Shown: positions 36,905 through 39,459 of the stretch, piece by piece
How positions within the stretch are numbered: the stretch's first letter is position 1
Layout: every line of letters starts with the position of its first letter
Origin: Candidatus Omnitrophota bacterium
GTDB taxonomy: Bacteria > Omnitrophota > Gorgyraeia > Gygaellales > Profunditerraquicolaceae
Direction of reading: 5' to 3'
Assembly (NCBI GenBank): GCA_016208765.1
Contig: JACQXK010000013.1
Span: 1 to 39,459, forward strand
Length of the DNA stretch: 39,459 bases
The notes under the pieces: model-generated
Seen by the model: the letters and a program-made list of their open reading frames with translations, nothing else
Databases searched by the model: none
What the model was told of the DNA's origin: nothing
Position numbers and translations under genes: made by a program

Positions 36905-37648
36905 ATGAAAGTATTCAGGCTTATCCGATCAAAGCCGGCAACAGCTGTTTATAACATGGCTTTGGATGAAAAGATATTTAATCAGTATCTTTTAGATGGT
37001 GTTCCTGTGCTGCGTGTGTATGGATGGTCGGCGCCATCTTTTACTTATGGGTTTTCACAGAAACCCCAAGAAGAGCTTGATTTGCCAGGATGTGCCAGAG
37101 CAGGGGTTGAGGTTGTAAAAAGAATGACAGGGGGCGGCATTCTTTTTCACCACGACGAGATAACGTATAGTTTTGTTTGTAGCAAACAGGATGTGGGGGA
37201 GGAACCGGGTGTTTTTGTTTCGTACCGACGGATTTGTGCATTTTTAATCAGGTTTTATAAGTCTCTTAGCCTTAAGGTTTCATTTGCAATTGAGTCAGAA
37301 AGTTTTAAGAGCAGGTCTTTGCCCCAGGCGCTTTGCAGCGCTTCAAACGAAAAATACGATATTATTATTAATGATAAAAAAATCGGAGGAAACGCCCAGA
37401 AAAGACGAAGGCAGGCCGTATTTCAACACGGAGCAATCCCCTGTAGTATTGACTGGGAGCTTGTGTCAAAATATATCCGTGTTTTTCCGAAAAATATGCC
37501 TGAAGAAATTACAACGCTTTCGCAAGAATTAGCGCATGTTCCTGATAAGGCTGTTTTGGAAGAAAAATTGATTGAGGCATTCGGCAATGAGTTTGGCGCG
37601 CGCTTCTTGGAGGAGGAAAAAGTTTATTGTGAAACCGGCGTGGCTTAA
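36905..37648 (+). CDS. Lipoate/octanoate-protein ligase or transferase (LplA/LipM family)
   Basis: A 247-residue member of the biotin/lipoate A/B ligase fold. VVKRMTGGGILFHHDEITYS near residue 73 is the RRxTGGGAVxH motif of lipoate enzymes, with Lys for the first Arg. The catalytic lysine region is DKKIGGNAQKRRRQAVFQHG near 157. The C-terminal accessory domain of E. coli LplA is absent, so it could be a LipM-type octanoyltransferase feeding LipA. Cofactor source (free lipoate or octanoyl-ACP) cannot be decided. It is 16 nt after gcvPB and overlaps lipA by 20 nt, pointing to lipoylation of GcvH. Confidence 0.88.
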   Translation: MKVFRLIRSKPATAVYNMALDEKIFNQYLLDGVPVLRVYGWSAPSFTYGFSQKPQEELDLPGCARAGVEVVKRMTGGGILFHHDEITYSFVCSKQDVGEEPGVFVSYRRICAFLIRFYKSLSLKVSFAIESESFKSRSLPQALCSASNEKYDIIINDKKIGGNAQKRRRQAVFQHGAIPCSIDWELVSKYIRVFPKNMPEEITTLSQELAHVPDKAVLEEKLIEAFGNEFGARFLEEEKVYCETGVA

Positions 37649-38486
37649 TAAGAAAATAGACCTCAGGGCATGTGCGCAGGTAAAACAGGTTTTACGGGAA
37701 TTACGGGTGGAAACTGTTTGCGAGCAGGCAATGTGCCCGAATATCGGGGAATGTTTTTCGCGAAACGAAGCAACTTTTTTGATTTTGGGCCGGCATTGCA
37801 CGCGAATGTGCAGTTTTTGTAATATTGAAAAAGGCAAGCCTTCTATAGTGGATTTTGATGAGCCGGAGCGTGTTGCTTGTGCGGTTGAGAAGTTTTCTTT
37901 AAAACACGTCGTGATTACCAGCGTTACTCGCGACGACCTTAAAGATGGCGGAGCGGGAATATTTGCGGAAACAGTTTTGCGTATCCGGAGTAAATCCGGT
38001 AATATAAAGATTGAGATTTTAATTCCTGATTTTCAGCTTTCCCTTGATGCTCTGGCTATTGTTGCGCAAGCTCCTGTGGATATCATCGCGCATAACGTGG
38101 AGACTGTTCCCTCGCTTTATAGTTTTGCGCGCCAGGGAGCTGATTATGCGCGCTCGCTTGATGTGTTGCGCCAAGTTAAAAAAATAGAGCCCGATCTAAA
38201 GACAAAGTCGGGGATCATGCTTGGCTTAGGAGAAAAGCAAGATGAGGTTATTGAGGTTTTGCAGGATTTACGTCTTGCAGGGTGTGATTTTGTAAGTATT
38301 GGCCAGTATCTTGCGCCAAGCGGCAGGCATTATCCTGTAAAAGAATATATTGAACCTGAAAGATTTTATTTTTATAAGGAGCAGGCAAAAGAAATTGGGT
38401 TTTTGCATGTTGAAAGCGGCGCCTATGTGCGCAGCTCGTATTTAGCAGGAGATTATTTAAAAGATGTTGATAAAAAGAAGCAATAA
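37629..38486 (+). CDS. lipA: Lipoyl synthase (LipA), GTG start
   Basis: A radical SAM enzyme that inserts two sulphur atoms into protein-bound octanoyl chains. From GTG 37629 it has 286 residues. The auxiliary cluster cysteines are Cys31, Cys36 and Cys42 (CEQAMCPNIGEC). The radical SAM cysteines are Cys57, Cys61 and Cys64 (CTRMCSFCN). VITSVTRDDLKDGGA and the C-terminal VRSSY, with the cluster-binding Ser, are present. GGAGGAGG at 37609-37616 precedes the GTG by 12 nt, and the start MKPAWLNKKI matches family N-termini; a longer form from 37572 is less likely. It overlaps the ligase gene and cbiQ at its two ends. Confidence 0.95.
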   Translation: MKPAWLNKKIDLRACAQVKQVLRELRVETVCEQAMCPNIGECFSRNEATFLILGRHCTRMCSFCNIEKGKPSIVDFDEPERVACAVEKFSLKHVVITSVTRDDLKDGGAGIFAETVLRIRSKSGNIKIEILIPDFQLSLDALAIVAQAPVDIIAHNVETVPSLYSFARQGADYARSLDVLRQVKKIEPDLKTKSGIMLGLGEKQDEVIEVLQDLRLAGCDFVSIGQYLAPSGRHYPVKEYIEPERFYFYKEQAKEIGFLHVESGAYVRSSYLAGDYLKDVDKKKQ

Positions 38487-39222
38487 TTTTCTTGAGCATT
38501 TTTTTGTCAGCGTGCTTTCTTTCTTGAAAGAATCCATGTTTACGCAGGAATACGCAGCTAAAAGAGGGTTTTTGCAAAAGATATATCCTGTATTCAGGGT
38601 TTTGATTTTTGTTAGTTTGCTTTTGGCGGCGATGTTTTCAAGGTCTTTGTATTTTTTGGCTGGCATGTATCTGGTTTGCCTGATGTTAGCAGTGTTTTCA
38701 TCAATTCAACTCGGGTTTTTCTTAAAACGCACCCTGTTTTTTATACCTTTATTTTGTCTTTTTATCGGGTTACCGGCTTTATTAAATATAGTTACTCCCG
38801 GCGAGCCGGTATTTAGCTTTAAGATATTTGCCTTTTCACTAAGCATTACAAAACAAGGCATAATAAGCGCTGGTTTTTTCTTTATGCGTGTTTTAGTCAG
38901 TGTGTCGTTATGCGTGCTTTTAGTTTTGACCACAAGGCACAATGTGTTGTTGAGGGTGCTGCGCGTATTTAGGGTGCCACAGGTTTTTGTGATGATATTG
39001 GGGATGTGTTATCGTTATGTGTATCTTTTTATTGAAATAATCCAGAATACCTATTTGGCGGTAAAAAGCAGGGTGGGAAGGCAGATGCATTACAAAAAAG
39101 GCCAGAGGGTTGTGGCGTGGAATATTGCAAGTTTATGGATAAGGTCATATGATTTGAGCCAGCAGGTTTATAGTGCAATGCTTAGCCGGGGATATACCGG
39201 TGAGCCAAAGACTTTGGAATGA
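38464..39222 (+). CDS. cbiQ: CbiQ/EcfT-type transmembrane component of metal ECF transporter
   Basis: A 252-residue membrane protein with about five helices. VMILGMCYRYVYLFIEIIQN near residue 175 and the coupling helices around SRVGRQ and SAMLSRGYTGE (near 240) are the EcfT motifs that contact the ATPases. The N-terminal 24 residues before a second in-frame ATG at 38536 are less conserved in type, so either start is possible; GGAG lies 12 nt before ATG 38464. It overlaps lipA by 23 nt, far from cbiM/cbiN at 28975-29993. The ATPase gene cbiO is not seen; it may lie beyond the window or elsewhere. Confidence 0.87.
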   Translation: MLIKRSNNFLEHFFVSVLSFLKESMFTQEYAAKRGFLQKIYPVFRVLIFVSLLLAAMFSRSLYFLAGMYLVCLMLAVFSSIQLGFFLKRTLFFIPLFCLFIGLPALLNIVTPGEPVFSFKIFAFSLSITKQGIISAGFFFMRVLVSVSLCVLLVLTTRHNVLLRVLRVFRVPQVFVMILGMCYRYVYLFIEIIQNTYLAVKSRVGRQMHYKKGQRVVAWNIASLWIRSYDLSQQVYSAMLSRGYTGEPKTLE

Positions 39223-39261
39223 TTAGTTGTAATTAAAGTTTTGTTCTTTTTGAATTTCACA

Positions 39262-39418
39262 GGTGACAAGGCATATTTCTCGCAGCACCGCTTGATTTTC
39301 CCCAGCGTGGAAAATCTTCGCTCGGGCGAAAGCTCTTGCTCTCGCAGACTATGTAATAGCGGGCGAACCATGCCCGCAAGAGCTTTCTAACGTGCTGCTT
39401 AAAACATGCCTTGTCACC
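39262..39418. repeat. 157-bp nested palindromic element
   Basis: The ends are perfect 13-bp inverted repeats: GGTGACAAGGCAT at 39262-39274 and its complement at 39406-39418. A second 7-bp pair follows inside (GCAGCAC at 39282-39288, GTGCTGC at 39392-39398). Inside that are an 8-bp hairpin (39294-39301 with 39309-39316), a 12-bp pair (GAAAGCTCTTGC at 39328-39339 with 39376-39387) and a 6-bp hairpin (39359-39364 with 39372-39377). The last two overlap slightly and are alternatives. No ORF fills the gap 39223-39459, and no clear target-site duplication flanks the ends. It could be a non-autonomous mobile element, a dispersed intergenic repeat or a structured RNA. Confidence 0.7.
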
Positions 39419-39459
39419 CAATTATCTAAAGCAAGAAAAGTTTCTGTGAGCACACAATC

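Follow-up and report, generated by a model that had tools for sequence, protein, structure and literature searches.

The branched palindrome at positions 39262-39418 of the window (the whole stretch of DNA analysed, 39,459 nucleotides) probably marks the end of a non-autonomous mobile DNA that belongs to a family found in the Omnitrophota and is moved in trans by a predicted enzyme encoded elsewhere. Multiple copies of the element have been inserted into intergenic sites that were formerly empty, and copies that lie close together form facing doublets, some of them empty and others with genes between their members. We infer that the ends are recognized by shape, moved in trans, and able to ferry genes as a unit. 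Overall, the element is best placed with the small non-autonomous mobile DNAs, as a variant form of these, and it might represent a distinct class. A broader proposal, which we advance only tentatively, is that a phylum-wide class of transposable DNA exists with shape-recognized branched ends, facing pairs, and an enzyme supplied in trans, and that it is able to carry toxin-antitoxin and defence genes into chromosomal hot spots, the malQ-tilS interval among them.

In the proposed mechanism, each end is a branched palindrome of 160-200 bp. Its long outer stem leads to a hairpin on one side and to a second arm that carries its own hairpin, and short conserved linkers join these stems. The predicted enzyme, encoded elsewhere, may read the folded DNA (as a single-stranded hairpin or a cruciform) together with the linkers, and could mobilize a single end, an empty pair (about 350-450 bp), or a pair that encloses genes. 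The window copy would be one such end, accompanied by the first 35 bases of a likely partner. If this is correct, a mostly uncultured phylum has its own cargo-carrying mobile DNA, and an enzyme is predicted whose target is the fold of the DNA instead of one set sequence. The compensatory changes among the copies would then offer a natural series for testing recognition by shape, and the element could serve as a marker in searches for defence genes and other accessory genes at hot spots of insertion.

The branched palindrome and its copies

The element follows cbiQ (38464-39222, plus strand; match to the CbiQ family PF02361, E 1.4e-29) at a distance of 40 bases. It is bounded by perfect 13-bp ends, GGTGACAAGGCAT (39262-39274) and ATGCCTTGTCACC (39406-39418), which form the outer helix P1 and lie within longer arms of 27 nt that are 85% complementary (39262-39288 and 39392-39418). 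These arms also include helix P1b, in which GCAGCAC (39282-39288) pairs with GTGCTGC (39392-39398). Further inside are hairpin P2 (39294-39301 with 39309-39316, 8 of 8 positions paired) and helix P3 (39328-39339 with 39376-39387, 12 of 12 paired), the latter enclosing hairpin P4 (TCGC at 39342-39345 with GCGA at 39363-39366). All arms are given on the plus strand, and each of these helices is supported both by the inverted repeat itself and by the alignment of copies; the count reaches five once P1b and P4, which were read directly from the sequence, are added. When folded as single-stranded DNA, positions 39256-39424 yield -42.7 kcal/mol, compared with -21.0 +/- 3.2 for 200 dinucleotide shuffles (z -6.73), none of which was as good. 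No ORF of at least 100 aa covers the palindrome (39262-39418), and a search for a terminator-like site, which bears on the suggested effect on the 3′ end of the long operon, found none. Thus, the original prediction of a nested palindrome with 13-bp perfect ends, five inverted pairs including several inner stems, no ORF, and a location directly after cbiQ is confirmed in each respect. Directly upstream of cbiQ, at 36905-38486, the gene for a lipoate ligase-like protein (PF21948) and a radical SAM gene overlap, and the latter weakly matches lipoyl synthase.

A BLAST search of the element's own genome (G000) revealed about 14 related copies. The covariance model R1, which was built from 29 sequences taken from this genome and its relatives, identifies 21 copies there and matches the whole window element (39256-39424, plus strand, model positions 1-169) with 184.2 bits (E 3.8e-53). 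Matches to R1 are present in 23 of 40 genomes comprising the own genome and relatives, and in at least 123 of 285 genomes of the phylum, a lower bound given that the survey scored at most 9 candidates per genome. Omnitrophica WOR_2 bacterium RBG_13_41_10 carries 12 copies. The nucleotide search that had been proposed along with the original prediction therefore reveals a multi-copy element rather than a single copy.

Genomic context was evaluated for 71 copies, mostly the best match per genome. ORFs are located on both sides of 64 of these, with the two genes arranged in tandem in 56 cases, divergently in 7, and convergently in 1, and two copies seemingly lie inside longer frames that are perhaps spurious. 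The Pfam families most commonly encountered among the neighbours are housekeeping families. Plasmid and phage collections contain no match to the element, and a pattern search of viral contigs also produced none, a weak negative given how strict the patterns were (one of them carried an extra spacer base). Among genomes, this last pattern had two matches, one of which, in a member of the Cellvibrionales (L106), contains no element as judged by R1 and was treated as a chance occurrence. A literature search that took in few subscription papers returned no description of the element.

Conservation of pairing

Compensatory changes, which the original prediction had suggested examining, are abundant among the copies. 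The element thus has neither the single copy nor the lack of covariation that would have pointed to chance or to the decay of an old element. RNAalifold assigns 37 pairs to the alignment, and 27 of these exhibit changes on both sides with pairing kept. Both partners have changed in five of eight pairs of P1 (alignment helix 1), seven of eight of P2 (helix 4), six of seven of P3 (helix 6), and three of four of P4 (helix 7), and P1b corresponds to helix 2. Covariation is no weaker in the inner helices than in the outer helix, whose sequence varies among copies while its pairing is maintained. Pairing is observed in 95.4% of 1068 cells; column shuffling lowers this to 76.5%, and sliding the partners by 1-3 columns lowers it to 33-45%. 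Because the structure comes from the same sequences, it has an advantage over the slid versions, but the number of cells with double changes (201 versus 55 in shuffles) is far beyond what this bias can explain. The unpaired linkers are also conserved, with many columns at 90% or above across genera, and GCTC occurs 3.3 times per copy versus 1.9 times in shuffles. The 5′ ends of the elements are variable.

Strong covariation and a multi-branched fold also favour a structured RNA, either a small RNA or a cis-regulator, that has spread as a repeat and whose fold is preserved by the compensatory changes. Furthermore, copies between tandem genes run in the direction of the genes more often than against it (38 versus 18, p 0.010), which likewise speaks for an RNA. 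However, functional RNAs tolerate G.U pairs more readily than A.C mismatches, and the element exhibits no such preference. G.T and A.C combinations are rare and nearly equal in number, at 16 and 14 of 1068 cells, and they amount to 36 and 30 of 3184 cells in a larger set of 87 sequences (retained from 105 after four antisense hits and duplicates were left out). The reverse strand, folded anew, gave 37 and 23 of 1269 cells, a ratio of 1.6. By comparison, 30 RNase P RNAs drawn from these genomes, aligned and folded in the same way, contain G.U in 158 (9.4%) and A.C in 35 (2.1%) of 1685 cells; tRNAs, of which only 6 were found, were left out as a control. The wobble ratio is thus 1.1-1.2 for the element strand versus 4.5-5.7 for RNase P RNA, and the Fisher p values (0.0014 with the smaller set, 2.7e-5 with the larger one) are optimistic, since related sequences are counted repeatedly.

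This near-equal rarity, so unlike the pattern of RNase P RNA, indicates that pairing seems to be maintained in DNA and not in RNA, either by selection on folded DNA or through mutation in which one arm serves as the template for the other. In addition, Rfam has no match over the window at gathering level and nothing relevant at E up to 10 in six loci, and related species have empty sites where the element is absent (see below). A structured RNA, which the original prediction had listed among its options, is left unsupported by these results and is very unlikely.

Template switching between arms could by itself keep the palindromes perfect in the absence of selection, and the repeats would in that case serve as sites of homologous recombination at which genes are exchanged. 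Such a process would account for the equal rarity of G.T and A.C, and recombination could produce facing pairs and hot spots. Yet the conserved unpaired linkers require selection or recent spread, the empty sites reflect insertion rather than exchange alone, and the partners in facing pairs are no more alike than non-partners. For these reasons, an explanation by template switching and recombination is highly improbable, and movement of the element as DNA is preferred.

Insertion sites and facing pairs

Mobility of the element is evident from comparisons among related genomes. The place occupied by the G000 copy at C35:69111-69280 is empty in the related genome G001, and the occupied site is flanked on both sides by AAGTAATATTATA, a 13-bp duplication. 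A copy in G001 (C35) is missing from G000, where the empty site is clean, and has no clear duplication; a third comparison is too diverged to judge. In genus g12, copy L226 (carried by G178 and also by G109) is missing in five relatives, L232 is missing in relatives, and L235 and the L225 pair are each missing in one. The corresponding sites for L231 are harder to interpret, and divergence of the intergenic sequence makes the precise ends difficult to place. Several copies are common to G000 and G001, including the one at the window's own site, and in G001 the site after cbiQ (L124, C26:44465-44820) contains a damaged copy, joined to a fragment of a second repeat (see below), as well as another facing copy. 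The upstream flanks of several closely similar copies (L004, L005, and G001 C1:24492-24660) contain what appears to be the 5′ part of another element, which suggests that element has inserted into element.

Bacterial MITEs such as Correia/NEMIS, ERIC, and RUP are described as sequences of about 100-200 bp that encode no protein, are highly base-paired and mostly intergenic, and mostly share set inverted repeats at their termini, along with TA ends and duplicated target sites (PMC2229807). The element resembles them in being short, noncoding, multi-copy, intergenic, and highly base-paired. It might therefore be an ordinary MITE derived from a DDE insertion sequence, with inner palindromes that are incidental, and the single 13-bp target duplication fits this explanation. 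In contrast to MITEs, the terminal arms are conserved in their pairing and not in their sequence, and covariation is as strong in the inner helices as in the outer one. Target duplications are also not general, as only 1 of 106 units (those remaining after incomplete flanks or repeated left flanks were dropped) has a convincing one, and there is otherwise no excess over shuffled flanks. An ordinary MITE is thus an unlikely explanation. The original prediction of a small non-autonomous transposon or chromosomal intergenic repeat is supported by the many copies, the empty sites, and the intergenic locations, but the ends are not terminal repeats of fixed sequence, and in many cases two such elements face each other to make up the larger unit.

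The orientation of neighbouring copies was tallied for 113 copies in nine genomes that were partly chosen for their pairs (113 of 122 rows, with the nine weakest left out). Every one of the 11 neighbour pairs closer than 150 bp is in the facing orientation. Of 11 pairs separated by 150-4000 bp, 6 are facing, 4 have the same direction, and 1 is divergent, a weak excess of facing (p 0.034), and beyond 4 kb there is no facing bias (9 of 33). Among the matches listed for 40 relatives, which were not chosen for pairs, close pairs counted by eye face each other in seven of seven cases. An empty facing pair spans about 350-450 bp. Recent inverted duplication was considered as a source of these pairs and rejected, given that partners are 73-90% identical and the median for non-partners is 79%.

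In G000 and G001, another palindromic repeat, about 190 bp long, lies behind several copies, either immediately adjacent or at most about 122 bases away, and a third kind of palindrome follows several copies in genus g12. Both differ in sequence from the element, and their position and orientation suggest that they are partner ends of other subtypes. The window, which is a whole contig that ends at 39459, contains the first 35 bases of the second repeat at 39425-39459 (putatively on the minus strand, facing the element), and the same 35 bases open the full repeat elsewhere in G000 and in G001. This segment is probably the start of the partner end, cut by the end of the contig. A break inside a second multi-copy palindrome is also the probable cause of the interrupted assembly, such that mobile DNA of this type would account for the break of this contig and perhaps of others. 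Occurrences of the second repeat away from the element in G000 (C121:1146-1182, C10:48669-48700, C10:27893-27923, and C35:145460-145487) raise the possibility that it may spread on its own.

Genes between facing ends and comparison with known systems

In some facing pairs, the two members enclose 0.8-3.2 kb of accessory genes, with conserved genes on either side whose names were read from translations. In G007, the genes enclosed by one pair, which lies between aroK and dprA, encode a BamE-like lipoprotein and an AbiGi protein. Those enclosed by another encode a PIN protein and a protein of 786 aa that weakly matches an ATPase, and this pair is flanked by a methylenetetrahydrofolate reductase-like gene on one side and an AAA ATPase gene on the other. 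A pair in G245 contains genes for two proteins that lack a Pfam match, and a pair in G146 that adjoins ruvB contains a gene for a trypsin-like protein. Brackets can also arise by chance, as illustrated by a pair in G011 that surrounds the core gene cysS (a name likewise read from its translation).

Most telling is the interval that separates malQ from a tilS-like PP-loop gene (names again read from translations, with Pfam support for malQ in the own genome). In the own genome, malQ is followed by the element, the second palindrome, and the tilS-like gene. The same interval in G203 holds the element, an HTH gene, and a facing element before the tilS-like orthologue (68.5% identity), and in G320 three genes, the last of which encodes a DUF5131 protein, separate the element from a facing element. 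One element and a TauE gene are located there in G245, and a DUF6036 nucleotidyltransferase gene and a second gene, with no element detected by R1, are present in G143, a case that speaks against the favoured explanation. Comparison across genomes thus indicates that accessory genes come and go in this interval, twice exactly between facing ends. The malQ-tilS loci L002, L163, L320, L312, and L322 contain accessory genes that differ by species, with or without the element.

REPINs, or BIMEs, are closest to the element in layout. They are inverted doublets of REP units that are intergenic, high in copy number, non-autonomous, and moved by TnpAREP/RAYT (PMC3116915, PMC8266576), and each REP unit is a palindrome of 20-50 nt with a conserved tetranucleotide foot, mostly GTAG (PMC8266576). 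The elements could similarly be facing doublets moved on single-stranded DNA by a Y1 (HUH) REP-associated transposase, with single elements as their remnants. REPINs are known as inverted doublets with compensatory changes (PMC3116915), and the element shares with them its intergenic placement, high copy number, inverted doublets with short spacers, hairpins with compensatory changes, and non-autonomy. Y1 genes are also present in 31 of 40 relatives.

The size, foot motif, and Y1 linkage of REPINs nevertheless do not fit. Units of the element are 160-200 bp and branched, they have no conserved GTAG foot, and some pairs have genes between them. Over 40 genomes, Y1 genes and element copies are uncorrelated (Spearman -0.02, p 0.91), and four genomes with 6-21 copies each (G001, G011, G020, and G026) have no Y1 match. 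Among the matches listed, inspection by eye found no Y1 gene within 5 kb of a copy, and the five Y1 loci of the own genome (L071-L075) contain no match to R1. A Y1 transposase, searched for in the own genome and 40 relatives, was consequently rejected as the mobilizer, as its presence did not track copy number, and a REPIN-type origin is unlikely. Among 141 ORFs neighbouring the copies, the commonest 25 of 184 families include no transposase, which, like the lack of tracking by Y1 genes, also counts against the favoured mobile-DNA explanation.

A non-autonomous mobile DNA with branched ends, as favoured here, also invites comparison with other systems. In layout, the branched terminal repeats of parvoviruses may be an analogue of the element, in that branched, inverted palindromes are located at both ends of genes. 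Unlike those repeats, the element is not known to be associated with a replication protein or virus, and the phage and viral collections contained no match to it. Integron attC sites are also folded DNA sites in which structure is kept over sequence, and they follow each cassette in the same direction. The element is like attC in its folded DNA, its retention of structure over sequence, and its adjoining toxin-antitoxin genes, but unlike attC, close copies of the element face each other. In G103 (L168, 1153-4050), a case that goes against gene exchange between facing ends, two elements in the same direction surround antitoxin, YafQ-like, and ORF6N genes. Genes for 105-aa and 97-aa HTH-like proteins come next at this locus and look like another toxin-antitoxin pair, an arrangement that resembles a cassette array.
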